Shown here: piece after piece, positions 1,932 to 36,882 of the stretch
Layout of the letters: the number at the start of each line of letters is the position of its first letter
How positions within the stretch are numbered: position 1 is the stretch's first letter
IMG/VR virus record: IMGVR_UViG_3300013131_004432
Span: 1-40,379 of that record
Length of the DNA: 40,379 nucleotides
Strand: one strand, 5' to 3'
Source of the DNA: a virus
Notes under the pieces: generated by a model
Told to the model about the DNA's origin: nothing
Database searches by the model: none
What the model saw: only the letters and a program-made list of their open reading frames with translations
Made by a program: the position numbers and the translations under genes

Positions 1932-2323
1932 AACGGCGCGGCACACCTGAAGCGGATTTGCAGCGTGCCGTGGTCACGGCGCTGCGCTTTGCCCTCCCCA
2001 ATGGAGCGATTGTCCATCACTGCCCCAATGAGGTCACTGAAGCCGGCCCGCGTGGCGCAAAGCATCAAGCGATCCTCGTTAGCATGGGCGTTCAGCCCGG
2101 CTTTGCGGACCTGATCGTGCTCTGCGAAGGTCGTGTGCTATTTCTTGAGCTGAAATCCCTCAAGGGACGCCTCAGCCCAGCGCAAGCGGCGTTTCGCGAT
2201 GCGGTGGCGGCGCAGGGCTTTGGCTGGGCGCTGGTGCGGTCCATGGACGACGCGCTAGGCGCATTGGCGGATCACGGGTTCACCACGCGTGTGTCCCCTC
2301 CAGTGAGGAGATCTGCGCCATGA
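1928..2323 (+). CDS. VRR-NUC domain nuclease
   Basis: A 131-residue single-domain protein of the VRR-NUC family (PD-(D/E)XK-type nucleases; stand-alone phage and bacterial members are reported to cut Holliday junctions or flaps). The active-site pattern is visible: PGFADLIV with D61, then LFLELKS with E74 and K76, then the LSPAQ segment with Q86 that follows in this family. An N-terminal E8xxxQ also fits. It probably processes branched DNA during phage replication, recombination or packaging. The start overlaps the upstream stop by ATGA, and its own stop overlaps the next start in the same way. The basic tail (SPPVRRSAP) shows no motif. Confidence 0.85.
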   Translation: MKRRGTPEADLQRAVVTALRFALPNGAIVHHCPNEVTEAGPRGAKHQAILVSMGVQPGFADLIVLCEGRVLFLELKSLKGRLSPAQAAFRDAVAAQGFGWALVRSMDDALGALADHGFTTRVSPPVRRSAP

Positions 2324-3333
2324 GCCATGCCGCCACCCACTGGGCGCTCCAGCAGCGCGGGTTGAAGCCCACGACGAAGATCGTGCTTTGGCACCTTTGC
2401 GATCGATTCAATCCGGATTACGGCTGCTTCCCCTCCCAGGAGCAACTGGCCGAAGACTGCGAAGTCAGCCGATCTACGCTGAACGAGCACCTGGCCCGAC
2501 TCGAAACCGCTGGCCTGATCCGCCGCGTCCAGCGGCTCAATCCTGGCACCAAGCGACAGATGCCCACCCGCTACATCTTGGCCTTCGAGCAGGGCTTTGG
2601 CCAGCATCACGCGGCCCCGTGTCCGGAAATCGGACATGGCGCTGACATGCAGGACGACCAGCCCTTCGCGCACCCCGAAAACACTGCGGATTTCGGCGCA
2701 TTTCTGATGGACCACCGCGCCCCATGTCCGAAAATCGGCCGCGGTGCCGTGTCCGATTTTGACCCTGAGCCGTGTCCGGAAAATGCCCCGAGCCGTGTCC
2801 TAAATCCGGACAGTAACCTTGTAAGAGAACCAGTAAGGGAACTTGTAAAGGAGGAGGAGGACGCGCGGGCGCGCGACGGCCTCGATGAGGAATTGTTCAG
2901 GCCGCTGTTGTTGGCGCTGGGCTTTGATCCTGACGGGTCCCTGCCCGGCTGGTGGCAAGGTTGGCCGCCCCGAGAGCATGTTCGGCGCTGGCAAGTGGAT
3001 CTCGAGTTGACGTCAGTCGAGATCCTCAATGCCGCAGGGGCCTCGCGGCTAGAACACCCCGAGCCCCCCGATGGGCCCAAGGCTCTGGACCGGATCATGC
3101 AGCGTGTCGCCCAGCGCAAGGCGGTTGAGGCCTCTCGTAAGCGGCGCAAGCCGAAGGCTTCACCTACTGAGCCCACGCATAGGCCGATTGCCGACGTGCC
3201 TGCCTTCTATGCCGATCTGGTCAACTCTGATCGCTATCTGCCGGTCAGCGCGATCACGAACTCCACGCGCGACGCAATGCTGGCCCGTGGGTTGGTAACG
3301 GCCGAGCGCCTTCGCGAACGAGGCATTCAATGA
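2320..3333 (+). CDS. HTH replication-initiator-like protein
   Basis: A 337-residue protein. Residues about 5-85 form a winged helix of the HTH_36 type seen in phage and plasmid replication proteins (TKIVLWHLCDRF, then SQEQLAEDCEVSRSTLNEHL, then ETAGLIRRV). Residues about 100-185 are a low-complexity linker with repeated Cys-Pro motifs (CPEIGHGA, CPKIGRGA, PEPCPENA) followed by a VREP/VREL/VKEE tetrapeptide repeat; the DNA coding this linker holds phased palindromic repeats annotated separately. The C-terminal half (about 190-337) is an unassigned domain with a basic patch (RKAVEASRKRRKPKA). A DNA-binding N-terminus plus iterons inside the gene matches lambda O and similar initiators, but initiator activity is inferred. 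It is coupled to its neighbours by ATGA overlaps on both sides. Confidence 0.7.
   Translation: MSHAATHWALQQRGLKPTTKIVLWHLCDRFNPDYGCFPSQEQLAEDCEVSRSTLNEHLARLETAGLIRRVQRLNPGTKRQMPTRYILAFEQGFGQHHAAPCPEIGHGADMQDDQPFAHPENTADFGAFLMDHRAPCPKIGRGAVSDFDPEPCPENAPSRVLNPDSNLVREPVRELVKEEEDARARDGLDEELFRPLLLALGFDPDGSLPGWWQGWPPREHVRRWQVDLELTSVEILNAAGASRLEHPEPPDGPKALDRIMQRVAQRKAVEASRKRRKPKASPTEPTHRPIADVPAFYADLVNSDRYLPVSAITNSTRDAMLARGLVTAERLRERGIQ
2620..2856. repeat. Iterons and AT-richer tract: candidate phage replication origin
   Basis: Five copies of a TGTCC(G)+A/T motif lie inside the initiator-like gene, starting at 2620, 2725, 2750, 2773 and 2796. The last four are 25, 23 and 23 bp apart, about two helical turns. 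Copies one and five are near-palindromes: TGTCCGGAAATCGGACA (2620-2636) and TGTCCTAAATCCGGACA (2796-2812). Directly after the last copy, 2821-2856 holds three 12-bp repeats beginning GTAA (GTAAGAGAACCA, GTAAGGGAACTT, GTAAAGGAGGAG), lower in GC than the surroundings. Iterons followed by an easily melted repeat tract inside the initiator gene is the lambda O origin design. The repeats are seen directly; origin function is inferred. A repeat in the protein alone could explain part of the pattern. Confidence 0.55.
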
Positions 3334-4258: not shown

Positions 4259-7200
4259 ATGCCTTTTCTCAGCTTCTTGAGACCCAAAATCAAAGATAAA
4301 CCGTTCCTGCTGGAGCGGTGCCTTTCCATCGATCTTGAAGTCAATCCCAAGTCCGCAGAGATCTTTGATCTTGCAGCCGTGCGCTATGGTTCTGGCCCGG
4401 CCGTTGTGGCGGCAAGAGGGCAGCTTCAGCAAGCGCTCGACAGGTTGGAAGCGGCGCTCGAGTCGACCATTCACATCATTGGCCACAATATTCTGCGTCA
4501 TGACATCGAGCACCTTCTGGCTGCTCGACCACGGCTTCGTGACAAGATGGATGCACCCATCGACACGCTTTGGCTGAACCCTTTGGCATTTCCGCGCAAC
4601 CCTTACCATCACCTCGTCAAGCATTACCACGACGGGCGCTTGCAGGCGGGACATGTGAACGACCCGGAGCTTGACGCTCGGCTGGTGTTTGAGGTGCTGG
4701 AAAACCAGATCGAAGCCTTCAAGGGGCAGGCTCCCGATACACTTCTGGCTTGGCACCATCTGGTGACCCGGATGGATCGCTCCGCAGGCTTTGATGCGGT
4801 CTTTCGCCATATCCGCAACGCGAGCGCGCCCGACCGGGCGACAGCCTTTGCGGCAATCCGCAGGCTCTTGCATGGGCAGGCTTGCGGCGCACAGGTCGAT
4901 CCAGCGCTCGAGGCGCTGCAGGACACGCAGATGGCCTGGCCGATGGCCTATGCCTTGGCATGGATATCGGTTTCGGGTGGGGAATCTGTGATGCCGCCCT
5001 GGGTGCGGGCCTCCTTTCCGCAGGCGGCACTGATCGTTCGTCGGTTGCGCGACACCAACTGCAGCGCCCCTTCCTGCGCTTGGTGTGCCACAATGAACGA
5101 CCCCAAGGGCGCGTTGAGGAAGTGGTTTGGTTTCCCCGCCTTCCGCGCTGAGCCTGCGGATGCCGAGGGCCGCCCGCTGCAAGAGGTCATCGTCGCAAAG
5201 ACCATGGCCCACGCCCATGTTCTCGGCGTTCTGCCCACCGGCACTGGCAAGTCAGTCTGCTATCAGGTCCCTGCTTTAAGCCTTTACGACAAAACCGGCG
5301 CGCTCACGGTTGTCATCTCGCCTCTCGTGGCCTTGATGGCCGACCAGGTCCAGGGGATGGAACGCACGGGAATATCCTCAGCGGTGACAATCAACGGCAT
5401 GCTATCGATGCCCGAGCGCCAAGAGGCATTGGACCGGGTTAGGCTTGGTCAGGCGTCTATTCTGTTGATATCGCCAGAGCAATTGCGCTCGGTTTCGGTG
5501 CGCTCTGTCCTTAGACAGCGTGAGGTCGGGTTATGGGTTTTGGACGAGGCGCATTGCGTCTCGAAGTGGGGGCATGATTTCCGGCCCGATTATCGCTACA
5601 TTGGTCGCTTCATCCGCGAATTTTCGGGTGATGCGCCACCGGCCCCGGTCCTTTGCCTGACGGCCACCGCCAAGCCCGAGGTCGTTCGTGACATCACCGA
5701 CCATTTCCGTGGGAGGCTCGGGATCGACCTGGCCCTTTTCGACGGCGGGGCGGCACGGACAAATTTGTCATTTTCGGTCCTAGCGACACGGAAAGAGAGC
5801 AAACTTGGAGATGTTCTAACGGCGATACAGGATCGCTTGCCCGAGGGCCGCTCCGGTGCGGTTGTCTACTGCTCCACGCGAAAAGAGACCGAACGGATTG
5901 CAGCGTTTCTCAAGGTGCAAGGCTTGGCAGCAGCGCATTTCCATGCCGGGCTGACAATTGATGACAAGCGGTCCATCCAAGAGGCTTTTCGTGTGGGCGA
6001 TTTGCGCGTGATCGCTGCCACAAATGCCTTTGGCATGGGGATCGACAAACCCGACATCCGGCTGGTTGTCCATGCCGATATCCCGGGCTCGCTGGAGAAT
6101 TACTTACAAGAAGCGGGCCGGGCCGGGCGCGACAGGATGCCGGCGGATTGCGTGTTGCTCTATCACACCGACGACGTCGAGCGGCAGTTCACGCTCTCTG
6201 CCCGATCCCGCCTCGAGCGGCACGAGATCGGCGCGATCCTCAAGGCGCTCCGACGGATCGACGAACATGGCCGAAATGGTGGCACGGTGGTCGCAACAAC
6301 CGGGGAAATTGTGCGCGAGGAGAAGGACCGCGAGTTTGTTCGCGACAGCGCAACGGATGACACGCGGGTCAAGACGGCGGTCTCGTGGCTGGAAGAGGCA
6401 ACCCTTGTTTCGCGTGAAGAGAACCGGGTGCGAGTCTTTCCGTCGTCGCTGATGGTCCGCACTTTGGATGAGGCCGCGGCGCGGCTCGATCAAGCGCAGA
6501 TCACGTCGGCGCGGCGCAAGCAGCTTCTGGACATCGTGCTCCATCTGATGAATGCGCCGGCCGACCAAGGCATCTCGGCTGACGAGTTGACGGGGATTGC
6601 AGGCCTAACGCATCACGGGCTTTCCAAGGCTATGGCGGACCTCGAGACCCTAAGACTGGCCAAGAATGACATCGCCATCACGGTTCAAATTCATGTCGGG
6701 GTTGAAAACGCCTCCCGTCAACGCTTCGCGGCGGCGCGGGCGCTGGAACGTGCGCTGATCGGCACAATGCGAGAAATGGCCCCGACCGCCGATGCAAATG
6801 GTGGTTGCCAGCTCGACCTGACGATTGCCAGCCAGAAGATGCGGGAGTTGGGTAATTCGGGTGCAGGTCCTCATATCCTAGAACGCCTCTTGCGCAGCAT
6901 CGAGCGGGACGGGCGAAACGAGGATGGCGGCCATGGAAACATTCGGCTGCGGAAGCTCTCTTCCAAGACGCTCGAACTCGTGCTGCTGCGCTCTTGGCGC
7001 GCCGTGGACCAAACGGCGGCCCTGCGCTGGGCGGCTGCCGAGAGGCTCATGGAATTTCTGATCGCCAAGGTGTCAACCGGCTCGAAGGGCAAGGACATTC
7101 AGGTCGAGACGACGCTTGGTGACCTTCTGGCTGTGCTGAACGGGGATGCGGTTATCAAGGCCTCCGGTGTCAAGGATATGACCAAGCTGATGGAGCGCGC

Positions 7201-9388
7201 TCTCTTGTGGCTGCACGAACAGCAGGTGTTGACGCTTGGCAAGGGTCTGACGGTGTTCCGCTCGGCCATGACAATCCACCTGAACCCCGAGCGGGTACCT
7301 TTCACAACCAAGGACTTCTTGCCGCTGCAGGAGCATTACCGCGAGCAGACCTTGCAGACCCATGTCATGGCCGCCTATGCCGAAAAGGGGCTGGAGCGGA
7401 TTGATGAGGCGCAACGTCTCTCTCAGGATTATTTTACCCTAGACCAGGATCGCTTCCTGCGCCGCTGGATGCCCGGGCGTGGCGTCGAAACCCGACGTCA
7501 AACCACCGGGCGGGCTTGGAAACAGATCGTCGAGGATCTCGGCAACCCCGTCCAGCAAGAGATCGTGGCCGATGACCGAGAGCAGACCAACGTCCTTGTG
7601 CTGGCTGGCCCCGGGTCAGGGAAGACAAGAGTTCTGGTCCACCGAATTGCCTATCTTCTGCGCGTCCGGCGCGAGGATCCACGGGGAATCCTCGTCTTGA
7701 CCTACAATCGCCATGCCGCAGCCGAGATACGTGCCCGCCTGCGCCACCTTGTGGGCGACGATGCGGCCTGGGTCACCGTCTCGACCTGCCACGCGCTCGC
7801 CATGCGATTGGTGGGGGCAAGTTTTGCGGGTGGTGCAACTGAGACGCGCGACTTCGATGCAATTCTGCGCGATGCCGTGCGCATGATTACGGGCGAAGGG
7901 CTTAGCCGGGCCGAAGCCGAGGCGCAGCGCGAGGCCCTGATCCAAGGCTATCGCTGGATCCTTGTTGACGAATATCAAGACATTGGCCCTGAAGAGTATG
8001 CGCTGATCGCCGCCGTCGCCGGTCGATCACTTGAGGATGCGGATCAACGCCTGAGCCTCTTTGCGGTCGGTGATGACGACCAGAACATCTATGCGTTCAC
8101 AGGCGCCTCAATCTCCTTCATCCGCCGTTTCGAAGAGGACTACCGCGCCAAGCCCAAATTTCTGACGGAGAACTACCGCTCAACCAGCTTCATTATCGAC
8201 GCGGCCAACCAAGTCATCGAACCGGCCCGGGGCAGGATGAAGGCGGGCCACCCGATTACCGTGGACAAATTGCGCGGCCTCCAACCGGGTGGTGGCGCCA
8301 TGGCGACCTACGACCCGGTGGGCCGAGGGCGTGTGCAGTTTCTCGACGTGGCAGGGGATGATGTCGCTCAGGCGGTGGCGGCTGTGGATGAACTCATCCG
8401 CCTTTCACGGCTTGACCCGGATTTCTCATGGTCACGTACGGCCATCATCTCGCGTGATTGGCGCCGCCTCGGGCCGGTACGGGCCTATGCGGAGAAAATG
8501 AGTCTTCAGGTCGAGATGGCCAATGAAAAGCTGCCAAGCGTCTGGCGGCTACGCGAGATGCAGTTTTTGGTGGCAGGTCTGCGGCAGCAACCCACGGCGA
8601 TGCTCACGATTCAGGACATCTTCAATGTGCTGAATCAACAGCGCCAAACGCGCTGGGTCGAGTTGATTGCCGAGGGCATCGCTGACTTGGCCCGCGATCT
8701 TGGCACCAAGACGATCTCGGTTCCCGATGTGCTGGAATGGCTGGCCGAGTGGTCGCAGGACATCCGGGGAGAGCAGCGCGGGCTTTTGCTCTTGACCGCC
8801 CATCGGTCCAAAGGGTTGGAGTTCGATCATGTAATCATTCTAAACGGCGGTTGGCAAACGATCTCGCGGGGCGAGGACGGCGAGGCACCGCGGCGTCTCT
8901 TCTACGTCGCCATGACCCGAGCGCGTCACAGCCTGGCCGTGGTGACCTGCGGCGCCCATGCTTTCGTCCGCGCAGACAGCGATAGCGAGCTTTTGCGCAA
9001 AGTTGAGACACCCCGACAGCTAGACCTGCCCGAGCCGGACCAATATCAGCTGCCAGATATGGGCTCAGTCGACCTCTCTTTTGCCGGTCGCCTCGCGGAG
9101 ACGAGCCAGACGCATGCAGCCATCGCCGAGGCCGAAATTGGCGACAAGGTGGCGCTGGAACGGCGCGAGGGAAAATGGATGATCCTAGACGCACAGGGGC
9201 GCGTACTTGGGCGCATGGCAGGAAGTTGGGGGCCACCTGAAGGCACAGATCTAGTTTCGGGCAAGGTCGGTGCTATCGTCCGCTGGCGCAAATCAGATAG
9301 CGAGGAGGCGTTTCAGACCTACATAAAACGTTGCGAATGGGAGACCGTTTTGCCGGAGCTTGTGTTTCGAGGACGCGGCAGGAGCTGA
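4259..9388 (+). CDS. DEDDh exonuclease - RecQ - UvrD triple-fusion helicase
   Basis: A 1709-residue three-enzyme fusion. Residues about 20-145 look like a DEDDh 3'-5' exonuclease: D25 and E27 (IDLEVNP), D82 (GHNILRHDIEHL), H132 and D139 (HVNDPELDARL). A Cys cluster (C268, C273, C276) follows. Residues about 300-690 are a RecQ-type SF2 helicase: Walker A PTGTGKS near 326, DEAH at 429-432, GMGIDKPD near 592, then QEAGRAGRD. Residues about 700-1100 form an unassigned helical linker. Residues about 1100-1600 are a UvrD/Rep SF1 helicase: GPGSGKT 1117-1123, VDEYQD with D1237/E1238, DDDQNIY near 1272, LTAHRSKGLEF near 1512, FYVAMTRAR near 1548. The last 100 residues are unassigned. All key residues are present, so all three activities are plausible. 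It probably unwinds and degrades DNA in repair, recombination or anti-phage defence. The start rests on the open frame; the ribosome site is weak. Confidence 0.9.
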   Translation: MPFLSFLRPKIKDKPFLLERCLSIDLEVNPKSAEIFDLAAVRYGSGPAVVAARGQLQQALDRLEAALESTIHIIGHNILRHDIEHLLAARPRLRDKMDAPIDTLWLNPLAFPRNPYHHLVKHYHDGRLQAGHVNDPELDARLVFEVLENQIEAFKGQAPDTLLAWHHLVTRMDRSAGFDAVFRHIRNASAPDRATAFAAIRRLLHGQACGAQVDPALEALQDTQMAWPMAYALAWISVSGGESVMPPWVRASFPQAALIVRRLRDTNCSAPSCAWCATMNDPKGALRKWFGFPAFRAEPADAEGRPLQEVIVAKTMAHAHVLGVLPTGTGKSVCYQVPALSLYDKTGALTVVISPLVALMADQVQGMERTGISSAVTINGMLSMPERQEALDRVRLGQASILLISPEQLRSVSVRSVLRQREVGLWVLDEAHCVSKWGHDFRPDYRYIGRFIREFSGDAPPAPVLCLTATAKPEVVRDITDHFRGRLGIDLALFDGGAARTNLSFSVLATRKESKLGDVLTAIQDRLPEGRSGAVVYCSTRKETERIAAFLKVQGLAAAHFHAGLTIDDKRSIQEAFRVGDLRVIAATNAFGMGIDKPDIRLVVHADIPGSLENYLQEAGRAGRDRMPADCVLLYHTDDVERQFTLSARSRLERHEIGAILKALRRIDEHGRNGGTVVATTGEIVREEKDREFVRDSATDDTRVKTAVSWLEEATLVSREENRVRVFPSSLMVRTLDEAAARLDQAQITSARRKQLLDIVLHLMNAPADQGISADELTGIAGLTHHGLSKAMADLETLRLAKNDIAITVQIHVGVENASRQRFAAARALERALIGTMREMAPTADANGGCQLDLTIASQKMRELGNSGAGPHILERLLRSIERDGRNEDGGHGNIRLRKLSSKTLELVLLRSWRAVDQTAALRWAAAERLMEFLIAKVSTGSKGKDIQVETTLGDLLAVLNGDAVIKASGVKDMTKLMERALLWLHEQQVLTLGKGLTVFRSAMTIHLNPERVPFTTKDFLPLQEHYREQTLQTHVMAAYAEKGLERIDEAQRLSQDYFTLDQDRFLRRWMPGRGVETRRQTTGRAWKQIVEDLGNPVQQEIVADDREQTNVLVLAGPGSGKTRVLVHRIAYLLRVRREDPRGILVLTYNRHAAAEIRARLRHLVGDDAAWVTVSTCHALAMRLVGASFAGGATETRDFDAILRDAVRMITGEGLSRAEAEAQREALIQGYRWILVDEYQDIGPEEYALIAAVAGRSLEDADQRLSLFAVGDDDQNIYAFTGASISFIRRFEEDYRAKPKFLTENYRSTSFIIDAANQVIEPARGRMKAGHPITVDKLRGLQPGGGAMATYDPVGRGRVQFLDVAGDDVAQAVAAVDELIRLSRLDPDFSWSRTAIISRDWRRLGPVRAYAEKMSLQVEMANEKLPSVWRLREMQFLVAGLRQQPTAMLTIQDIFNVLNQQRQTRWVELIAEGIADLARDLGTKTISVPDVLEWLAEWSQDIRGEQRGLLLLTAHRSKGLEFDHVIILNGGWQTISRGEDGEAPRRLFYVAMTRARHSLAVVTCGAHAFVRADSDSELLRKVETPRQLDLPEPDQYQLPDMGSVDLSFAGRLAETSQTHAAIAEAEIGDKVALERREGKWMILDAQGRVLGRMAGSWGPPEGTDLVSGKVGAIVRWRKSDSEEAFQTYIKRCEWETVLPELVFRGRGRS

Positions 9389-9433: not shown

Positions 9434-10114
9434 TCAGTCGGGCTGTCTGCCGCGGTAGCCAACGCCGGGCTCAGTCTGGATAAGGATAGGGCGGGACGGG
9501 TCGTCCTCAACCTTTTGGCGCAGTTGGCCGATGAAGACGCGCAGATAGGGCACGTCTTCGACATGGGCGGGGCCCCAGATACGGACGAGAAGCTGGCGGT
9601 GGGTCAGGACGCGGCCGGGCGTCTCGGCGAGGGCTGCCAGCAGATCGAACTCCTTGGGGGTCAGGTGGATCTCGTCAGCTCCCCGCATCACCTGATGGGC
9701 TGCCAGGTCGATCTGCAGCTGCCCCAGACGCAGCAGGGGCTCCGACGCCTTGCGGGCCGGGCGCAGGCAGACGCGAAGCCGCGCCAGAAGCTCGCCGATG
9801 GCGAAGGGCTTGGCCACGAAGTCATCAGCGCCAAGGTCCAGAGCCATGATCTTCTCCATCTCCTGATCCCGGGCCGACAGAACAATCACCGGCAGATCAT
9901 GGGTGGCCCGCAGCCGCTCGATCACGGCTTTGCCGTCCATGTCTGGCAGGCCGAGGTCCAGGACAATGAGATCCGGCCGGCGCTCAAGGGCCGCGAGCGC
10001 ATCGACTCCGGTCGCGGCGGTACAGGTGTCATAGCCTGCGGCCTGCAGGGCGGGAGAAAGAAAGCGCAAGATCTGCGCCTCATCGTCAACGATCAAGATC
10101 AAAGGGCGGGTCAT
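9434..10114 (-). CDS. kdpE: KdpE-like response regulator
   Basis: A 226-residue OmpR/KdpE-family regulator. The receiver domain (about 4-118) has the acidic pair D10/D11, phospho-acceptor D53 (VLDLGLPD), S80 and K102 (AKPF). The winged-helix effector domain (about 130-222) has LTPKEFDLLAALAETPGRV, the KdpE-like IWGPAHVEDVPYLRVFIGQLRQKVE, and a final GVGYRG. It would be phosphorylated by the kinase encoded directly upstream, whose stop overlaps this start (ATGA), and would bind promoters of potassium-uptake genes. No kdpFABC is in the window; the nearest potassium gene is kup, just beyond the kinase and divergent, so kup is the likely target (inference). It ends 45 bp from the convergent helicase gene. 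Confidence 0.88.
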   Translation of the reverse strand: MTRPLILIVDDEAQILRFLSPALQAAGYDTCTAATGVDALAALERRPDLIVLDLGLPDMDGKAVIERLRATHDLPVIVLSARDQEMEKIMALDLGADDFVAKPFAIGELLARLRVCLRPARKASEPLLRLGQLQIDLAAHQVMRGADEIHLTPKEFDLLAALAETPGRVLTHRQLLVRIWGPAHVEDVPYLRVFIGQLRQKVEDDPSRPILIQTEPGVGYRGRQPD

Positions 10115-11553
10115 GTCGGAAGCCTGAAGGTGAAGGTTGCGCCCTCGGAGGTCAGTTGACCGCCAAGGTGGCGCGCGATGCCCTTGGCGACTGCGAGACC
10201 AAGGCCACCCTGCCCCAAGGCAGGGCGCAGGTCCGGCCCCGAAAGCCAGGCCGCGAGGGCCGCAGGCAAGCCGTGGCCTGCATCGCTAACGGCGACGCAA
10301 AGGCTCTCGTTGGTTGCCATCGCCGTCACCGTGACGGGAGGGCAGCCATGGGCAAACGCATTATCCATAAGGTTGAACAGCGCCTGCTCGATCAGTCCGC
10401 CTTCCGAGCGCAACATCGGCAGATCACCCAAGTCTAGGCGAATCTCGCCCCTGCGAGCGCGGCGCAGCCTCGCGGCCGCAGCGGTGGCGAGGTCGCCGAT
10501 ATCCACCCAATCGCACCGCATCGGAGCCTGCGCCTCCAGCCGGGAGAGTTGCATCAGGTTGCCAACATGTGCGTTCAGCCGTAAGGCCTCTTCCTCGATA
10601 GCGGTCAGAAGGTCGGTGCGGGCCGGCGGCGCAAGCTCCAGGTCTTTCAGCGCTGAGGCCGCGCCGAGGATCGTGGCCAAGGGTGTGCGCAAGTCATGGC
10701 CGAACGATGCCAAGACGGCGGCCCGCGTCGCCTCGGCCTCGGCACGCTGGCGTTCGGCGCGGGCATGGGCAGCGAACGCCAGCCGCTGCAGGGCAAGTTG
10801 GGTCAGGCGCACTGCTTGTACAATGGCTATTTCGCGCAAGTGCCCTTCGCGTCCCGGAGGCGGCGTGTGACCCAGAACCAATCCTTCGGCCAGGGGGACG
10901 AAGGTCAGCCGGCTTCCCTCCCAGCCCGGGGCGGCGGCGGCTTGCGGTTGCTGGCTGCGCAAGGCCCGGTCGCAGGCCGCCTGGGTCACTGGATCGAGGC
11001 CGGCGCCATCGGGCAGCAGACCCTCTGGCGTCATCACGACCGCCTCACCCTGGCAAAGCCGGGCGAGCGGCGCAAGCGTGGCCTGCAGGGCGGCTTTTTC
11101 GGTCTCTGCACCGGCCAGCGACATTGATAGATCGCCAAGGACTGCCAAGGCTTCGGCCCGCACGCGGGCGGCCTCGGCCCGTTCGTGTAACCGGCCCGTC
11201 AACCAGCCAGCCAGCCCCGCGACGAGCAGGAACTCCACGAGCGCTACGAGGTCTGAGACCCTTGTGACGTTGAAGGTGTAAAGCGGCGGGGTGAAAAGGA
11301 AATTCAGTGCAGCAAAGCTGGTGCACGCTGCAAGCAACCCGCTCCAGAAGCCGAAGGCCACCGCCGCGACAAGGACTGCAACGAGAAAGACCAGCGGCAA
11401 GAGGTCGGGGGCAAAGACCGGGAGGAAGTCGGTCGCCAGCTTGGCGAGGCTTGCGGAAAGGGCGACCAGGGTCAGGGTCGCCGCGACGGCACCGGCCCCT
11501 GGGGCCGGGGGCCAGGGTCTGGTGTCAGGCAAAAGGTCGGTCGTTGCATCCAT
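10111..11553 (-). CDS. KdpD-like sensor histidine kinase lacking the N-terminal KdpD/Usp domains
   Basis: 480 residues, against about 900 for classical KdpD. It begins at the membrane part: hydrophobic segments between residues about 20 and 120 (DUF4118-like, including LPLVFLVAVLVAAVAFGFWS and the NFLFTPPLYTF signature). Then comes a GAF-like region (about 135-255), a dimerisation/phospho-acceptor helix with H286 (SFGHDLRTPL), and an ATPase domain with N394/N398 (NLMDN), DAGHG 424-428 and GQGGLGL 447-453. The missing N-terminus is the part that in E. coli carries the ATP-binding KdpD domain and the universal-stress domain. The start looks natural, with its own ATG and a non-coding stretch upstream, so this is a short-form family member rather than a broken gene. 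It is coupled to kdpE downstream and divergent from kup. Confidence 0.85.
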   Translation of the reverse strand: MDATTDLLPDTRPWPPAPGAGAVAATLTLVALSASLAKLATDFLPVFAPDLLPLVFLVAVLVAAVAFGFWSGLLAACTSFAALNFLFTPPLYTFNVTRVSDLVALVEFLLVAGLAGWLTGRLHERAEAARVRAEALAVLGDLSMSLAGAETEKAALQATLAPLARLCQGEAVVMTPEGLLPDGAGLDPVTQAACDRALRSQQPQAAAAPGWEGSRLTFVPLAEGLVLGHTPPPGREGHLREIAIVQAVRLTQLALQRLAFAAHARAERQRAEAEATRAAVLASFGHDLRTPLATILGAASALKDLELAPPARTDLLTAIEEEALRLNAHVGNLMQLSRLEAQAPMRCDWVDIGDLATAAAARLRRARRGEIRLDLGDLPMLRSEGGLIEQALFNLMDNAFAHGCPPVTVTAMATNESLCVAVSDAGHGLPAALAAWLSGPDLRPALGQGGLGLAVAKGIARHLGGQLTSEGATFTFRLPT

Positions 11554-11593
11554 AGGTCCAGCTTTTCGGCCTTGGGGCAGCCTTGTCCACCGT

Positions 11594-11645
11594 CTTTATG
11601 CAATCCTTATAAATCACTGCGCATTCCCCATCGCATCCTTATGCA
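11594..11645. promoter_or_regulatory. Direct repeats in the kdpD/kup divergent promoter region
   Basis: The 147-bp gap 11554-11700 separates the divergent kinase and kup genes and should hold both promoters. ATCCTTAT occurs at 11603-11610 and 11635-11642, 32 bp or about three helical turns apart, and TTATGCA at 11596-11602 and 11639-11645. Same-face spacing of AT-rich repeats beside a KdpE homologue suggests a response-regulator site. The binding assignment is inferred from position only. Confidence 0.35.
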
Positions 11646-11700
11646 GGCCCGGGCGAGAAGGAGGCGCCGTCGCACAGGCGGTGCCACCCGAGCCCTCCTC

Positions 11701-13596
11701 ATGACCGACCTCTCCGTCCCACAGCCCCATGCCCCCGGCAAGGCCGGGCTCCTGTCGCTTTCGCTCGCCGCCATTGGCGTGGTCTACGGCGACATCGGTA
11801 CATCGCCGCTTTACGCCTTCCGCGAAGCGATGAAGGCGGCAGGCGCCCAGCATGGCGAGGTCAATCCGGCCGATGTCCTGGGCGTCCTGTCGCTGATCAC
11901 CTGGGCCCTGATGATCATCGTGACTGTCAAATACGTGGCGCTCCTGATGCGGGCCGACAACCAGGGCGAAGGAGGGACGCTCTCCCTTCTGGCTCTTGCC
12001 GAGCGGTCCTTGGGAGGTCGCAGGCGGTTGGTTCTGGCGCTCGGCCTGGTCGGCGCGGCGCTGTTCTTCGGCGATGCGGCGATCACGCCTGCCATCTCGG
12101 TCTTGTCGGCGGTCGAGGGCCTGAGCCTGATCACCACGGCCTTCGACCCCTGGATCGAGGCGATCTCAGTCGTCATCATTATTGGCCTCTTCTTGGTGCA
12201 ATTCCGCGGCACGGCGGCGGTTGCGGTCTTCTTCGGGCCGATCACGCTCGTTTGGTTCGTCCTGATGGCTGCGGGGGGGCTTTGGCACATCGCCGATGCG
12301 CCCCAAGTGCTGGCCGCGCTGAACCCGCTGCAGGCGCTGGAGTTCCTGACGTCGAACGGTAAGCTTGGCTTGATCGTCCTCGGCGCGGTCTTCCTTGCCG
12401 TCACCGGGGCTGAGGCGCTTTACGCGGACATGGGCCATTTCGGCCGCCGTCCGATCCAGCTGGCCTGGATCGTCGTGGCCCTGCCTTCGCTTCTGCTGAA
12501 CTACTTCGGTCAGGGTGCCCTGATCCTGAAGGACCCCGCCGCGCTGGAAAACCCTTTCTTCCGGCTTTACCCTGAGAGTCTGCTTCTGCCTGTCGTCGTT
12601 CTGGCCACCGCCGCCACGATCATCGCCTCCCAAGCCGTGATTTCTGGGGCCTTCAGCCTGACCCGCCAGGCGATCCAATTGCGGCTCCTTCCGCGCATGC
12701 GCATCCGCCACACCTCGGACGCGCAGGAAGGTCAGATCTATATGCCCGCCGTCAACCAAGGCCTGATGGTCGCCGTCCTGGTCTTGGTGGTGGTGTTCGG
12801 CAATTCCTCGGCGCTGGCTTCGGCCTATGGCATCGCGGTGACCGGGACCATGGTCGTGACGGCGACCCTAGCCATGGTCGTCGCGCACAAGCACTGGGGC
12901 CTGCGCGCCCCTCTGGCCGTGGCACTCTTCGCACCCTTCCTCGCTTTGGACCTGACCTTTTTGGGCGCCAACCTCCTGAAACTCTTCGAGGGCGGCTGGC
13001 TGCCCTTGGGACTGGCCACATTAATGGTGATCACCATGACCTGTTGGATCAAAGGGACGGGCGTCGTGCTCGGCAAAGAGGCGCAGGGCGAGATGGGCCT
13101 CGTCAAGCTCATCAGCATGCAGATGACCAAGCCATTGCCGAAAGTCCCCGGGACGGCGGTCTACCTGACCTCGGACCCCGACTATGCCCCTGCTGCGCTC
13201 TTGCACAGCCTGAAGCACTTCAAGGTCCTGCACGAACAAAACGTCATCCTGACGATCCGGACCGCCGATATCCCCCGCGTCGCACCCGAGGATCGCGTGA
13301 CCATGATCGACCTCGCTGCCGGTTTCCGGCAAGTCACTCTGACCTGGGGCTACGCTGAGGAACCCGACGTGCCCAAGGGTCTGGCGCTCTGCCGCAAGCT
13401 CGGGTGGAAGTTCGACATCATGGCGACCTCCTTCATCCTGTCGCGTCGCAGCTTGCGCCTCTCGTCCCGACGCGAGATCCCCGCTTGGATGGCGCGGCTC
13501 TTCATCCTGATGGCCCGCAACTCCACACCGGCCTCGGATTACTTCCGCATCCCCGCTGGCCGCGTTGTGGAACTCGGAACCCAGGTCAACGTGTGA
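11701..13596 (+). CDS. kup: Kup low-affinity potassium transporter
   Basis: A 631-residue Kup/HAK/KT potassium transporter (K+/H+ symport into the cell). The N-terminus carries the family signature GVVYGDIGTSPLYAFREA. Some twelve hydrophobic segments follow up to about residue 450, including GDAAITPAISVLSAVEGL and AVTGAEALYADMGHFGRR. The last 180 residues are the cytoplasmic C-terminal domain (for example GTAVYLTSDPDYAPAALLHSLKH) with a basic end. The ATG at 11701 is chosen over the track-length start at 11572 because homology begins there and the upstream part is Arg-rich nonsense; AGAAGGAGG lies well upstream at about 11658. Length is normal for the family. It is divergent from the kdpD-like kinase, its likely regulator. 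Finding kup between phage early and late genes is unusual. Confidence 0.92.
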   Translation: MTDLSVPQPHAPGKAGLLSLSLAAIGVVYGDIGTSPLYAFREAMKAAGAQHGEVNPADVLGVLSLITWALMIIVTVKYVALLMRADNQGEGGTLSLLALAERSLGGRRRLVLALGLVGAALFFGDAAITPAISVLSAVEGLSLITTAFDPWIEAISVVIIIGLFLVQFRGTAAVAVFFGPITLVWFVLMAAGGLWHIADAPQVLAALNPLQALEFLTSNGKLGLIVLGAVFLAVTGAEALYADMGHFGRRPIQLAWIVVALPSLLLNYFGQGALILKDPAALENPFFRLYPESLLLPVVVLATAATIIASQAVISGAFSLTRQAIQLRLLPRMRIRHTSDAQEGQIYMPAVNQGLMVAVLVLVVVFGNSSALASAYGIAVTGTMVVTATLAMVVAHKHWGLRAPLAVALFAPFLALDLTFLGANLLKLFEGGWLPLGLATLMVITMTCWIKGTGVVLGKEAQGEMGLVKLISMQMTKPLPKVPGTAVYLTSDPDYAPAALLHSLKHFKVLHEQNVILTIRTADIPRVAPEDRVTMIDLAAGFRQVTLTWGYAEEPDVPKGLALCRKLGWKFDIMATSFILSRRSLRLSSRREIPAWMARLFILMARNSTPASDYFRIPAGRVVELGTQVNV

Positions 13597-16374: not shown

Positions 16375-16786
16375 GGCGGGCTCCGGTGGGCTGAGTTGCA
16401 TCGTTTTCTTGGGACGACCATCGCTCTCACTCCGCGATTATCGTAGTGCAATCAGCGCAATAGGATTGCTATCTGGCCTGCTGATCCCGAGGGGTAGCGT
16501 CCACCCATTCCCCGTCTTTCCAGAGGTAGAGGTGCGCGAATTGGCAAGTGGGGGCAGCGAAGACCTGCGCGGGGCGCGGAGGATCTAAGCACTCCAGCGC
16601 GTCTGAGCGAACCTGCCGAAGCTCGCGCGCGGCGACGATGTCCTCCGGCGTCCAAGCGGCCAGCGCAGGCAGCATGTGGGCGGGGTAGCCATCATAGTGA
16701 ATGGAATGGTTGCCGCCCTCCCCCGAGTGCATCGCAATATGCCAAAGTGGCAACAATCGCCACGAACGCATGGAAGGAGGGCAATC

Positions 16787-17818
16787 ATGACGATGGACAC
16801 GATCATTGGGGTTGATTTGGCAAAGAACGTCTTTCAGCTTCACGGGGCTTCAGACAGCGGCGAAGTCAAGTTCCGAAAGAAGCTGACGCGCGAACAGTTC
16901 CGCCGGTTCATGGCGGATCATCCGCCAGCAATCGTCGCGATGGAGGCTTGCGGCAGCGCACATTACTGGGCCCGCGAAATGGAGAAACTGGGCCATGCCG
17001 TAAAACTGATCGCGCCGCGCTATGTGAAGCCGTTCGTCAAGCGCCAGAAAAACGATGCGGCAGATGCCGAGGCCATCGTGATCGCGGCACAGCGGCCTGA
17101 AATGCGATTTGTTGTGCCAAAGTCAGAGGAACAACAGGCGCGCGCGGTTCTGTTTCGCGCACGCGAGCGCCTCGTTCACCAGCGCACCGACCTAGTGAAT
17201 TCCCTGCGCTCGGTCCTCTATGAATACGGGCATGTCCTGCCCCAAGGGATCAAGCACCTCCCACGGATCTCGGAAATCATCGAGGCACCCAATTCCGACC
17301 TGCCGGAACTGGTTCGAGAGGAATGTCGCGAGCTGCTTGAACAGATTGCGCAGATTTCCGACCGAATTGCAGAGAAGAATGCAAAGGCCAAGAAACTGGC
17401 CGCGGAAACCGACACGGCGCGCAGGCTGCAGACCATGCCAGGTGTCGGCCCGCTGATTGCCCTGGCCATCGAAGCATTTGCGCCATCCATGGAGCACTTT
17501 CAGCGTGGTAGGGATTTTGCGGCATGGCTTGGGCTGGTACCCCGGCAGTTCTCATCAGGCGGCAAGCAAAGGCTCGGGCGCGTGTCGAAAGCGGGTCAGG
17601 CAGATATTCGGCAGCTGCTGATCATGGGCGCGATGTCACGCCTGAACTGGGCGGGGAGGAGAGGGGTCGCTGAAGGGTCATGGCTGGCGCGGATTTGCAC
17701 CAGAAAACCTCGTATGGTGGTCGCGATCGCGCTGGCCAACAAGATGGCGCGCGCCATATGGGCGATGCTTACGAAACAGCAGGATTATCGAGATCCGACG
17801 AAGGAGATTGCAGCATGA
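16787..17818 (+). CDS. IS110-family transposase (DEDD recombinase)
   Basis: 343 residues from MTMDTIIGVDLAKN; GGAGG lies about 7 nt before the ATG at 16787. The N-terminal DEDD/RuvC-like domain (DEDD_Tnp_IS110) shows D10 (GVDLAKN), E53 (MEACGSAHYW) and D90/D93 (KNDAADAEA). A coiled middle region is followed by the transposase_20 domain: MPGVGPLIALA, then FAAWLGLVPRQFSSGGKQRLG, containing the Ser-rich motif thought to supply the nucleophile. Length and all catalytic residues are intact, so the element may be active. Such enzymes insert at short specific targets guided by an RNA from the element's own non-coding end. Confidence 0.95.
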   Translation: MTMDTIIGVDLAKNVFQLHGASDSGEVKFRKKLTREQFRRFMADHPPAIVAMEACGSAHYWAREMEKLGHAVKLIAPRYVKPFVKRQKNDAADAEAIVIAAQRPEMRFVVPKSEEQQARAVLFRARERLVHQRTDLVNSLRSVLYEYGHVLPQGIKHLPRISEIIEAPNSDLPELVREECRELLEQIAQISDRIAEKNAKAKKLAAETDTARRLQTMPGVGPLIALAIEAFAPSMEHFQRGRDFAAWLGLVPRQFSSGGKQRLGRVSKAGQADIRQLLIMGAMSRLNWAGRRGVAEGSWLARICTRKPRMVVAIALANKMARAIWAMLTKQQDYRDPTKEIAA

Positions 17819-26779: not shown

Positions 26780-27154
26780 CTAGGCGCGCGCCTCTGCCGG
26801 GCGAACACCGCGTGCAGCCTGCCGTCGACGACGCGGTTCCTCGGTATCTCCAAGCCCCTCGAGAGCCACAGGTGCCTTACCAGGAAACTCGACCACCAAT
26901 TTGAGATTACCGCCCATGGCACGCACATAGCTTGACAGCGTCGAGAGCAGCAAATCGCTCTGGCGCTCATACTTGGCGACGGTCGCTTGCTGAATATGAA
27001 GCGTTTCTGCCAGTTGTACTTGCGTCAGATCTTTGGCTTTCCGCAACTCACGCAAGGTCAGATATTCGGTCTGGAGCCGGTCTGCTTCTGCCTCGATGCC
27101 TGCGCGACGGGCTGGATCGAGCGCGGCCAACTTGTCCTTCAGGGTACGTGCCAT
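26780..27154 (-). CDS. higA: HigA-like antitoxin (XRE-family HTH)
   Basis: 124 residues. The HTH (about 35-90) reads LRELRKAKDLTQVQLAETLH, then IQQATVAKYERQSDLLLSTL, a classical XRE fold that binds the module's promoter. LKLVVEFPGKAPVALEG follows, then a basic tail. It is the second gene of a toxin-first pair (higBA order), beginning 5 bp after the toxin stop. It would neutralise the HigB-like toxin and repress the operon. The gene is antisense to the phage late operon and its stop lies one base after the DUF6441 stop on the other strand. Confidence 0.85.
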   Translation of the reverse strand: MARTLKDKLAALDPARRAGIEAEADRLQTEYLTLRELRKAKDLTQVQLAETLHIQQATVAKYERQSDLLLSTLSSYVRAMGGNLKLVVEFPGKAPVALEGLGDTEEPRRRRQAARGVRPAEARA

Positions 27155-27159
27155 GATTG

Positions 27160-27513
27160 TTATCCTTTCCGTTGTATCAGATGGCGGTCAAACCGCTCAT
27201 CCGCCCGGGCGATCAGTTGCTTGTAAAAGCGCTTCTCACTGCCACCCGACTTATCTCCGCCGACGAGTAAAATTGCCTGCCGATCAGGATCAAATGCAAA
27301 AGCGATGCGCCACACGCCGTCAGCGGCATTGCATCGCAACTCCTTCATGTTTGCATGCTTCGAGCCGGTCAGGGTGTCAGCATGTGGTCGGCCAAGCGTC
27401 GGCCCCTCGCGTTCCAGAAGCAGTGCGCGCGCGAGGATTGCATCCTGCACATCTTGCGGGAGTTCGTCGAACTCTGGTTCGAACTCCGCTGAAAACGCAA
27501 CAGTCCACGGCAT
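27160..27513 (-). CDS. higB: HigB-like toxin (RelE/Gp49 family)
   Basis: 117 residues of the phage-derived Gp49/RelE superfamily of ribosome-dependent mRNA interferases. Seen are an N-terminal strand and helix (WTVAFSAEFEPEFDELPQDV), MKELRCNAADGVWRIAFAFD with Arg residues in the catalytic sheet, and DRQAILLVGGDKSGGSEKRFY typical of this group. GGAGG lies 5 nt before the ATG. The toxin precedes its antitoxin, as usual for higBA. Transcription runs leftward from the promoter at 27532-27564. Confidence 0.85.
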   Translation of the reverse strand: MPWTVAFSAEFEPEFDELPQDVQDAILARALLLEREGPTLGRPHADTLTGSKHANMKELRCNAADGVWRIAFAFDPDRQAILLVGGDKSGGSEKRFYKQLIARADERFDRHLIQRKG

Positions 27514-30730: not shown

Positions 30731-31021
30731 TTAGGCCGCTCGAAGGGGCTGGATTCCTGTGAGGTCTACCTTCTCGCGGGCGCGGGCCAAATCCCAGGAC
30801 CGTTGCAGGTTCATCCAGTATTCTGGCGTGGTGCCAAAGAAGGTTGCAAGGCGCATGGCCGTGTCGGCAGACAAGGTCGTCTCGCCCTTGACCAGCCGTT
30901 CGATCCGGGTGCGCGGCACAGCCAGGCGCTTTGCCAAGGCTGGCGCACTCATCTCCAGCGGCTCCAGATAGAGCAACGAGAGCACTTCACCAGGATGGAA
31001 AGGATTATGCAGCAGGCTCAT
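30731..31021 (-). CDS. higA: HigA-family antitoxin (VapI-like XRE)
   Basis: 96 residues with the HigA signature: MSLLHNPFHPGEVLSLLYLE, then MSAPALAKRLAVPRTRIERLV, KGETTLSADTAMRLATFFGT and TPEYWMNLQRSWDLARA. The XRE HTH spans about 25-75. It follows the toxin gene by 11 bp in the toxin-first higBA order. It would bind both its toxin and the operator at 31324-31340. It is leftward, beginning the second large antisense block in the late operon. Confidence 0.9.
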   Translation of the reverse strand: MSLLHNPFHPGEVLSLLYLEPLEMSAPALAKRLAVPRTRIERLVKGETTLSADTAMRLATFFGTTPEYWMNLQRSWDLARAREKVDLTGIQPLRAA

Positions 31022-31032
31022 CGTGTCTCCTT

Positions 31033-31314
31033 TCAGTGATAATCTACAAGTTCAACTTCGGCTGGACCTTGATCTGTCCAGACAAAACAAATGCGCCATT
31101 GGCCGTTGATGCGGACCGAATGCTGGCCGATCCGGTCGCCAACCAAGGCTTCCAGATGGTTGCCCGGCGGAAAGCGCAAGTCTTCCAAGACAACCGCCGC
31201 ATCCAACGCAGAAAGCATAGCACGCGTTCGCCGTACCAGATCCGCCGGAAAGCCTTTGCCGAAACGGTCAGAGAGCGCCTGCTCAGTCAGTTTGCCGCGA
31301 ATGCTGATGATCAT
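31033..31314 (-). CDS. higB: HigB-family toxin (RelE superfamily)
   Basis: 93 residues of the classic HigB family of mRNA interferases. Seen are MIISIRGKLTEQALSDRFGK, an Arg-rich VRRTRAMLSALDAA, LRFPPGNHLEALVGDRIGQH and SVRINGQWRICFVWTDQGPA, then EVELVDYH at the end, all standard for HigB. The protein cuts mRNA on translating ribosomes unless HigA is bound. It is unrelated in detail to the Gp49-type toxin at 27160-27513, so the two higBA modules are separate acquisitions rather than a duplication. Confidence 0.9.
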   Translation of the reverse strand: MIISIRGKLTEQALSDRFGKGFPADLVRRTRAMLSALDAAVVLEDLRFPPGNHLEALVGDRIGQHSVRINGQWRICFVWTDQGPAEVELVDYH

Positions 31315-31361: not shown

Positions 31362-31418
31362 ATGTCACAAAAGAAGATCTCCGCCCGGCTTGTCGCTATT
31401 GGGGCTGTCATCTTTTGA
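31362..31418 (+). pseudogene. Remnant 5' end of a tape-measure gene
   Basis: A 19-codon frame (MSQKKISARLVAIGAVIF, stop) on the late-gene strand. Its first 15 residues match the start of the tape-measure protein at 32072 (MSEKKVSVRLIAVGG) at nine positions with conservative changes elsewhere, and the DNA matches at about 80% over 43 bp. The leader before it (AAAATCAAGGA) also matches the leader of the true gene. Homology ends next to the stop of the vapC gene at 31408. It is the broken-off start of an earlier tape-measure gene, left behind when vapBC came in. Confidence 0.8.
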
Positions 31419-31788
31419 TCTTCTCGATCAGGGTGACCCCGGGCAGACCCTCGAAATGCTTGTCGCAGGTCAGCAGTTCCGCTCCCTTGGCGCGGGCGGT
31501 CGCAAACATGATGGCATCGGCCGTTGCAAGCTTGTGGTTGCGGCAGGCCTCTGCCGCCGCGATGGCGATTTCTGTGTCGAGCGGGACCACCTGGCAGACT
31601 TGTGTAAAGGCAATGACCTGATCTGCCTTATCCTCGCCCGCTTCCCGCGTCAGCCACTTCGCCAGTTCCAGCTGAACCATGCTGGGCACAAGCCAGTCGG
31701 ACTGTTCAGGCAGATGTGCCGCCAGTTTGTCGCCGGTCGGCGACCCGATCAGCCATTCGATCCAGGCGGATGTATCGACGAGGATCAT
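31408..31788 (-). CDS. vapC: VapC-like PIN-domain toxin
   Basis: 126-residue PIN-domain ribonuclease. Acidic metal-binding residues are in place: D5 (MILVDTSAW), E41 (VQLELAKW), D91 (LATADAIM) and D109 (LLTCDKHF). VapC toxins cut tRNA or rRNA when released from VapB. The start overlaps the VapB stop by one base (TGATG). Leftward; its stop lies directly beside the tape-measure remnant on the other strand. Confidence 0.9.
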   Translation of the reverse strand: MILVDTSAWIEWLIGSPTGDKLAAHLPEQSDWLVPSMVQLELAKWLTREAGEDKADQVIAFTQVCQVVPLDTEIAIAAAEACRNHKLATADAIMFATARAKGAELLTCDKHFEGLPGVTLIEKIKR

Positions 31789-35745: not shown

Positions 35746-36144
35746 TCAGGATTTGAACGGGTTGGTGATTGTAAGCCGCCCCTCGACCAAGAGGCCATCC
35801 TGCATGTCTTCAGAATAGAGCGTGGTGCATCGATTTTGCAGGGCTGCGGCGACGATCATCGCATCATAGACAGAAAATCCGTAACGCTCGCCAAGGGCGC
35901 GCCCAATCTCATGGGTCGTGGGCGTCAGGGCAACGACAGGGCAAATCTGGCATATGCTGTCGAGGAAAACGCCAGCTTCCTGCCAGCTCATCGCGGCTTT
36001 GCGGATACAGTTGACGAGGGTCTCGTTGAGGACCTGAACGCTGATCATCCCGCCTTGGGCGATGAGGTGTTCGGCCTTCTCGGCCTTTGCGCTCTCATCC
36101 AGCAAATAGAGGATAATGTTTGTGTCGAAAAAATTAGCGCTCAT
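35746..36144 (-). CDS. vapC: VapC-like PIN-domain toxin
   Basis: 132 residues from MSANFFDTNIILYLLDESAK (ATG at 36144, overlapping the end of vapB; a GTG at 36156 is possible). PIN-domain residues are present: D7 (FFDTNIILY), E41 (QVLNETL), D94 (SVYDAMIVAAA) and D113 (YSEDMQDG). The sequence is quite different from the vapC at 31408-31788, so this is an independent module. It cuts RNA unless bound by VapB. Leftward, inside the tail-tip gene block. Confidence 0.9.
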   Translation of the reverse strand: MSANFFDTNIILYLLDESAKAEKAEHLIAQGGMISVQVLNETLVNCIRKAAMSWQEAGVFLDSICQICPVVALTPTTHEIGRALGERYGFSVYDAMIVAAALQNRCTTLYSEDMQDGLLVEGRLTITNPFKS

Positions 36145-36361
36145 GCGTATCGTCACGGCTTAGACGCGCGGTGGCGGGAAGGCGCCCACGGAAGGGCCGC
36201 AGTGCGGCCAAGACTTCCTCAGGTCGCTGATGACGCGCGAGGGCAATGCCGGTCCCATCGGCATGAATATCAATGTCGTCACCCTCTTTGAGGCCCAGTT
36301 GGCGAACAAGCTCGGCGGGGAGACGGATGGCAAGAGAATTACCCCATTTTGCGACTTGCAT
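36134..36361 (-). CDS. vapB: VapB-like antitoxin (AbrB/SpoVT type)
   Basis: 75 residues from MQVAKWGNSLAIRLPAELVR. The ATG at 36361 has GGAGG 7 nt upstream, and the longer upstream extension is rejected as it is Arg-rich noise. The AbrB fold (KWGNSLAIRLPAELVRQLGL, then GDDIDIHADGTGIALAR) occupies the first 50 residues, and the tail (LRPFRGRLPATARLSRDDTH) should wrap the toxin. It overlaps vapC by 11 bp. An imperfect inverted repeat lies upstream at 36380-36405. Confidence 0.88.
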   Translation of the reverse strand: MQVAKWGNSLAIRLPAELVRQLGLKEGDDIDIHADGTGIALARHQRPEEVLAALRPFRGRLPATARLSRDDTHER

Positions 36362-36379
36362 GGCAGTCCTCCATTGCTT

Positions 36380-36405
36380 GGATACACTGATAGAGATGTA
36401 TATCC
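36380..36405 (-). promoter_or_regulatory. Inverted repeat upstream of vapBC
   Basis: GGATACA (36380-36386) is opposed by TGTATATCC (36397-36405), an inverted repeat with a 2-nt insert in one arm, 19 bp before the vapB start. A TTGCAA hexamer just upstream in the leftward direction could be the -35. It is a likely VapBC operator. Confidence 0.4.
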
Positions 36406-36459
36406 ATTGCGAGATATTTGCAAGACCAACGGCACACATGTTGAGAGAAGGGCAGACCC

Positions 36460-36882
36460 ATGCCTCGCCTTGAACACTGGGAGCGCAGGCTTGCGGCCGC
36501 GATCGACACGGCGCGTTCCCGGCCCTTCGTTTGGGGTCTTCACGACTGCCCGACCTTCGCCTTTGAGACGCGCATGGCTCTGACCGGCGGCGAGGATGTC
36601 GCCTCGCTCTGGCGGGGCAAATATACAACCCATCTTGGCGGACTTCGCGTCATGCGTCGCTTGGGGTGGTCCTCACTTGAGGCTATGGGCAACGCGCTTT
36701 TGGGGGGGCAGCGCGACACCGTGCTTCAGGCCCAACGGGGCGACATCGTATTGGCTGATACTGGCCTGGGCTTCGGCGTCGTGATTGGCGCCACGGCGGT
36801 CGGGCTTGCCCCCGAGGGCCTGAAATTTGCTTCACTCAGCTCCTGCCGTGTGGCTTGGCCCGTTAGATCCAAACGCATTTGA
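36460..36882 (+). CDS. Tail NlpC/P60-like peptidase (DUF6950 type)
   Basis: 140 residues, MPRLEHWERRLAAAIDTARS onwards. It shows PFVWGLHDCPTFAFETRMAL with the presumed catalytic Cys in HDCPTFA, then RGDIVLADTGLGFGVVIGAT, where family members have a Gly/His region; I see no clear His, so activity is uncertain. Members of this group sit between tail hub and tip genes and help the tail pass through the cell wall. AGAAGGG lies about 10 nt upstream. It is separated from its upstream partner by the antisense vapBC. Confidence 0.75.
   Translation: MPRLEHWERRLAAAIDTARSRPFVWGLHDCPTFAFETRMALTGGEDVASLWRGKYTTHLGGLRVMRRLGWSSLEAMGNALLGGQRDTVLQAQRGDIVLADTGLGFGVVIGATAVGLAPEGLKFASLSSCRVAWPVRSKRI

Follow-up and report, generated by a model that had tools for sequence, protein, structure and literature searches.

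The sequence analysed, referred to here as the window, is a virus record of 40,379 bases, and all positions are those of the whole record. It comes from a tailed phage or prophage and includes terminase and portal genes. The features considered below lie in one gene, that of a predicted replication initiator:

2320–3333, plus strand: initiator gene, 337 amino acids, with an HTH_36 winged helix and a match to PHROG 345 ("replication initiation O-like")
2320–2589, plus strand: predicted N-terminal winged-helix DNA-binding domain, residues 1–90 (Pfam HTH_36, 1.6e-16; AlphaFold2 model)
2470–2508, plus strand: recognition helix, residues 51–63; its positions 1, 2 and 6 are R51, S52 and E56, which covary with bases 5, 8 and 9 of the half-site
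2620–2636, no strand: site 1, perfect 6-5-6 palindrome TGTCCGGAAATCGGACA
2629–2871, plus strand: linker predicted to be disordered from the structure model, residues 104–184, nearly co-extensive with the DNA sites
2725–2741, no strand: site 2, degenerate palindrome TGTCCGAAAATCGGCCG with two arm mismatches, 25 bp before site 3 (the majority of relatives have 37 bp)
2747–2760, plus strand: site 3, half-site CCGTGTCCGATTTT, frame 1
2770–2784, plus strand: site 4, half-site CCGTGTCCGGAAAAT, frame 0
2793–2812, plus strand: site 5, palindrome TGTCCTAAATCCGGACA (2796–2812) with one arm mismatch and a leading CCG, frame 2
2813–2856, plus strand: A+T-rich block with GTAA at 2813, 2821, 2833 and 2845 and 12-bp tandem repeats AACCnGTAAnnG, the probable unwinding region
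2857–2874, plus strand: GC-rich tail after a purine-rich stretch, GAGGACGCGCGGGCGCGC, its synonymous codons also conserved
2881–3330, plus strand: all-helical C-terminal domain, residues 188–337, unlike that of lambda O and evolving separately from the DNA-binding domain

The product of this gene matches PHROG 345 across residues 1–182 (E = 1.4e-22) as well as PHROG 391, likewise described as "replication initiation O-like", and the sole PHROG match of residues 171–337 is PHROG 35955. A Pfam search of the initiator yielded no Rep_3 or TrfA domain, and a RepC N-terminal domain below the cut-off only. No close relative was found among solved structures, and likewise none by sequence for lambda O; a fold search recovered only generic MarR/DnaD winged helices, the nearest solved folds being of the MarR/SlyA type. 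The next gene belongs to PHROG 9306, whose function is not annotated; no P-like gene was recognised in the replication region, and no helicase loader was identified. A GC skew minimum near the site is suggestive only.

In a 1709-residue protein encoded downstream of the replication module (4259–9388), a RecQ-like DEAD helicase is fused to a UvrD-like helicase. Between the early and the packaging genes lie a two-component pair resembling KdpE/KdpD and a potassium transporter of the Kup type (9434–13596); either these potassium genes are cargo or the record is chimeric. An IS110-family transposase is located at 16676–17818, and toxin-antitoxin-like modules, antisense among the structural genes, at 26780–27513, 30731–31314, 31408–31788 and 35746–36628; these are of the Gp49/HTH and HigB/HTH types and include two genes with a PIN domain, of which the second has a partner that, judged by eye, is AbrB-like.

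In the initiator gene, TGTCC starts at 2620, 2725, 2750, 2773 and 2796, with spacings of 105, 25, 23 and 23 bp, and GGACA starts at 2632 and 2808; the TGTCC positions and their 25/23/23 spacing agree with the original prediction. All seven words of the gene fall within one 200-bp stretch, compared with 1.9 ± 0.9 words in synonymous shuffles of the gene (seven reached in 0 of 5000) and at most two in any 200-bp window elsewhere in the record, and none of 5000 shuffles matched the period-23 score. Scanning the whole window with loose matching revealed no palindrome excess, so that the significant feature is the clustering and spacing of the sites. Of the motifs, two of which had been described as near-perfect palindromes, 2620 is a perfect palindrome, 2796 has one arm mismatch and 2725 two, and 2750 and 2773 are half-sites. 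A+T content is 62.5% in the 40 bp at 2810; only 0.5% of all 40-bp windows in the record, and no other part of the initiator gene, are as rich, in line with the lower GC content claimed for the GTAA repeats. The three 12-bp-spaced copies reported there (2821, 2833 and 2845) are joined by a fourth at 2813.

Homologues of the initiator were collected from viral contigs, species genomes and annotated phages (210 distinct genes) and belong mostly to alphaproteobacterial phages, with genome matches mostly in Rhodobacterales. One lies on the 103.7-kb plasmid pRA03 of Roseicitreum antarcticum (L369:6001-6960), with integrase and nuclease genes nearby, and represents either an integrated prophage remnant or the replication module of a phage-plasmid. 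The commonest repeated linker word was found for each gene without a prior motif, and 75 non-redundant homologues were scored for the three-copy period that fits best. A period of 23 bp wins in 61.5 of the 75, compared with 12.3 in synonymous shuffles, and the mean period-23 score is 21.7 (of 24) versus 14.4 ± 2.3. The order half-site, half-site, palindrome at sites 3, 4 and 5 recurs in 53 of 61 non-redundant genes, and the equivalents of 2750 and 2773 are half-sites in nearly all homologues. The palindrome upstream of site 3 is 25, 37 or 34 bp away in 24, 16 and 4 of 49 genes, respectively, the shorter distance and the two longer ones being apart by about one helical turn; the in-frame distances of 28, 31 and 40 bp are absent from these 49 genes, an absence that a role of helical phase would predict. 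The 23/23 array is kept by several distant homologues whose words differ (AACCGGAC in Rhizobium phage PPF1 and relatives; TGTCGCA; TGTCCAG; ACACCGGA); in the two Rhodobacter capsulatus phages examined, the 23-bp spacing is lacking.

Palindromes can be operators, and with MarR/SlyA-type winged helices as the nearest solved folds, the sites might serve self-repression by the same protein rather than replication. The palindromes all lie about 300–500 bp inside the gene, however, with 243 perfect ones inside genes and 0 in 698 kb of flanking DNA (a count of the patterns of class A, the helix and iteron class of the window; those for classes B and C were left out because they did not match the spacers of these classes), and the fixed 23-bp array with A+T-rich 12-mers directly behind it resembles an origin. 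We therefore consider self-repression improbable; a reading of the protein as a global regulator is disfavoured by the same lack of sites outside the gene.

The word repeated in the linker varies in step with the recognition helix. Helices of the form SRS(T/A)LN are found with CCGTGTCC, those of the form S(I/V)S(A/S)LN with CCATCTCC, and those of the form RA(S/T)(L/V)NR mostly with GTGTCT; among the members of these classes, only a single RASVNR gene and both R. capsulatus phages have no scorable 23-bp triple. Helix class equals iteron class in 149 of 149 scorable relatives with the window-type C-terminal domain. Changes of the word are concerted over all sites and go in step with residues 51, 52 and 56, which stand out by mutual information: R51 occurs with G5 and I/V51 with C5 (132/132), S52 with C8 and A52 with T or G8 (131/132), D/E56 with G9 (92/92), and R56 with C9 (22/22). 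An AlphaFold2 model, obtained independently, has the recognition helix begin at residue 51, which makes these residues the first, second and sixth of the helix, where contacts are classically made; pairings of arginine with guanine and of an acidic residue with the cytosine across from G9 are textbook examples. Genes fetched via the 12-mer only fit the same rules (R51, A52 and R56 with CCATGTCTCA in L376; S51, S52 and D56 with CCATCTCCGG in L396), as do the R. capsulatus phages (V51, S52 and D56 with CCGACTCCGA). The tree shows one change of R51 and five of residue 52. An independent-pairs test of coevolution always gave the predicted direction, with too few supported pairs for significance. 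The covariation is near perfect in counts but has few independent switches behind it, and its strength resides in the parallel change, at each switch, of several sites in three frames. The covariation of these residues with bases 5, 8 and 9 supports the proposal, already made from the single sequence, that the protein binds the sites through its N-terminal winged helix.

Helix and iterons together appear to form a cassette that has been exchanged repeatedly against the C-terminal domain. On a tree of that domain, the class changes 29 times; counting well-supported branches only, label A still requires 8 changes, label C 6 and label B 5. The C-terminal domain of the window is nearest that of a class B gene (L016) and is joined to a class A helix and iterons; Labrenzia phage V1 joins a class B helix and iterons to a different C-terminal domain. 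Helix and iterons of mixed class were never seen together among the scored genes, an absence to which linkage contributes because the two are adjacent. Across classes, the word changes together with the recognition helix that its own gene encodes, and the pairing survives repeated C-terminal exchange, which argues against a centromere-like partition site and against a target for some other regulator of phage or host. Iterated sites can act as centromeres, and a role of either kind does not require the encoded protein, but we regard both possibilities as very unlikely.

Because 23 is not divisible by three, consecutive sites land in different reading frames, and sites 3, 4 and 5 are in frames 1, 0 and 2 in 151 of 151 scored genes of classes A, B and C. 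One DNA word is thus spelled as three unrelated peptides (PCPEIGHG, AVSDF and SRVRNPDS), which excludes a repeat at the protein level. Synonymous positions were analysed in a thinned set of 133 relatives that share the window-type C-terminal domain. At conserved residues, codon entropy relative to expectation is 0.70 outside the sites and the A+T block, 0.18–0.51 in the sites, and 0.20 in the block (sites and block versus elsewhere, Mann-Whitney p about 4e-10; codon-bias divergence, p about 2e-11), so the greater synonymous conservation anticipated for the repeats is pronounced. Frozen codons include Val168 GTA, Arg169 AGA/AGG and Glu170 GAA (133/133 each), Thr165 ACT (118/118), and Gly105 GGA (118/119), and the high codon-bias divergence implies that most of them are minority codons within the same genes. 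Conservation of this kind extends to about 2874; to the right of the A+T block, 2848–2874 is purine-rich and then reads GCGCnnGCGCGC, with frozen GAG (127/129) and GCG (125/130) codons. Instead of a peptide repeat persisting after loss of the DNA palindrome, the opposite is seen, the word being kept in three frames. Since it is kept across frames and its changes are concerted over all sites, the Cys-Pro motif of the linker is a by-product of the DNA word, as originally suggested. The converse, that the repeats are a protein feature and the DNA similarity incidental, can be rejected even though sites 1, 2 and 4 encode PCPxxGHG-like peptides in one frame, given that sites 3 and 5 are in other frames at a spacing that is not a multiple of three, synonymous positions are frozen, and the linker is predicted to be disordered. 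The comparison of homologues shows constraint at the DNA level on the word, on its spacing and on the 12-mers, and shows that the word varies in step with the recognition helix.

Directly 3' of the last iteron, 40 bp have a GC content of 42.5%, compared with 61% for the gene, and the content is lower there in 61 of 61 genes; tandem 12-mers of the form AACCnGTAAnnG are found in nearly all of these genes, whatever the iteron word. A scan for the 12-mer pattern without protein input recovered 80 loci. Among them, 35 matches are in long ORFs, mostly initiator genes with 22- or 23-bp iterons directly upstream, and the remainder are mainly recognisable protein repeats. Matches in GSFTGSFT-type repeats (structural-looking phage genes, other strand) and in EPVNEPVN-type repeats were discarded as false positives, and the 12-mer is therefore not diagnostic by itself. 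In initiator genes whose iterons are unrelated, the 12-mer (2813–2856; L370–L449) still comes after the last one, and these genes include a group with 22-bp iteron spacing and the words AAATTTCCC, GACTCCACT and GACCGGCAAA. Plasmid Rep proteins bind single-stranded DNA sequence-specifically in such regions (PMC4081077), and this is a possible role for the 12-mer region. The 12-bp repeat is the least explained part of the array and is common to initiators with unrelated iterons.

In lambda O, the origin likewise lies inside the initiator gene, between the DNA-binding and C-terminal domains (PMC7466680), and has dyad iterons at about 20–24 bp (20/24/23 bp) with an A+T-rich stretch directly after the last, like here. 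Lambda has four dyad iterons (ITN1-4), each bound by an O dimer, whereas three dyads and two half-sites with strict 23/23 spacing are present here, followed by 12-bp GTAA tandem repeats that also differ from lambda, and the C-terminal domain is unrelated to that of lambda O. Both proteins match PHROG 345 over the N-terminal half; direct comparison with hhalign gave no match. The original assignment to a lambda O-type origin is supported by the in-gene iterons and the A+T region; the dyad layout, the C-terminal domain and the lack of a recognised P gene set it apart from lambda O in the strict sense. As two defining features were tested and are lacking, namely the four dyads and the lambda O C-terminal domain with P, we do not file the gene as a lambda O member; the evidence supports an origin that would work like the lambda O type yet is a distinct variant.

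Homologous N-terminal domains and in-gene iterons are found in RcKemmy and RcHotPocket (R. capsulatus), Labrenzia V1, Rhizobium PPF1 and Mesorhizobium P1; the records examined label these initiators as HTH, regulator or initiation protein and show no origin feature in the displayed stretch. RcHotPocket, Labrenzia V1 and PPF1 have GTAA repeats after the iterons, as here; the R. capsulatus, Labrenzia V1, PPF1 and P1 phages have other iteron words (CCGACTCCGAA, GTGTCTCA, AACCGGAC, GGGTGACACC), and Labrenzia V1, PPF1 and P1 a different C-terminal domain. The SfV/mEp460-type replication protein (PHROG 270) also has in-gene repeats, and its 12-mers GAACCAGTCA (orf39 in SfV) are close to the GTAA 12-mer, although iteron word, C-terminal domain and host all differ. 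Iteron plasmids (RepE, pi, TrfA) have direct half-site repeats beside an A+T-rich region with short repeated motifs (PMC5043065, PMC4081077), but their initiators are of a different family and the iterons are usually outside the gene, mostly as direct repeats without interspersed dyads. No paper describing the present origin was found in the open-access literature.

Taken together, the comparative data make it very probable that the initiator carries its own origin in the linker-coding DNA, the winged helix loading the array, the A+T block opening, and the C-terminal domain bringing the helicase. In this model, in which we infer binding, wrapping, opening, helicase recruitment and the origin function itself, the winged helix, most likely as a dimer, would bind the palindromes at 2620, 2725 and 2796, and single winged-helix domains the half-sites at 2750 and 2773. 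The initiator would load and wrap the helically phased array, and the wrapping stress would open the adjoining A+T-rich block with its tandem GTAA 12-mers (2813–2856), after which the helical C-terminal domain might recruit the host replicative helicase, directly or via a host loader. This model is drawn by analogy with lambda, where O dimers sit on the iterons and the A+T region opens (PMC5043065, PMC7466680): loading of the array by the initiator would distort the block and be followed by helicase recruitment. The last step we can only infer, because the C-terminal domain is not that of lambda O and no P-like gene or loader was identified.

More tentatively, and with the balance somewhat against it, the observations could be joined into a general phage origin of mixed dyads and half-sites, in which helix and iterons follow a simple, readable code and are exchanged as a cassette and the 12-mer AACCnGTAAnnG is a specificity-independent unwinding element, common to initiators with unrelated iterons (the 22- and 23-bp types, in several proteobacterial phage groups) and recognised by a conserved factor, either as a single strand or by a host protein. 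For a large group of alphaproteobacterial phages and prophages, whose initiator genes mostly appear as "HTH protein" in the records examined, the analysis predicts an origin with exact limits and a code for protein-DNA recognition. It turns the old question of the type specificity of O proteins into a comparative data set of more than 100 natural variants and singles out a 12-bp repeat that origins differing in specificity have in common. In practical terms, these predictions may serve for minireplicons and for origin typing of Rhodobacterales phages.
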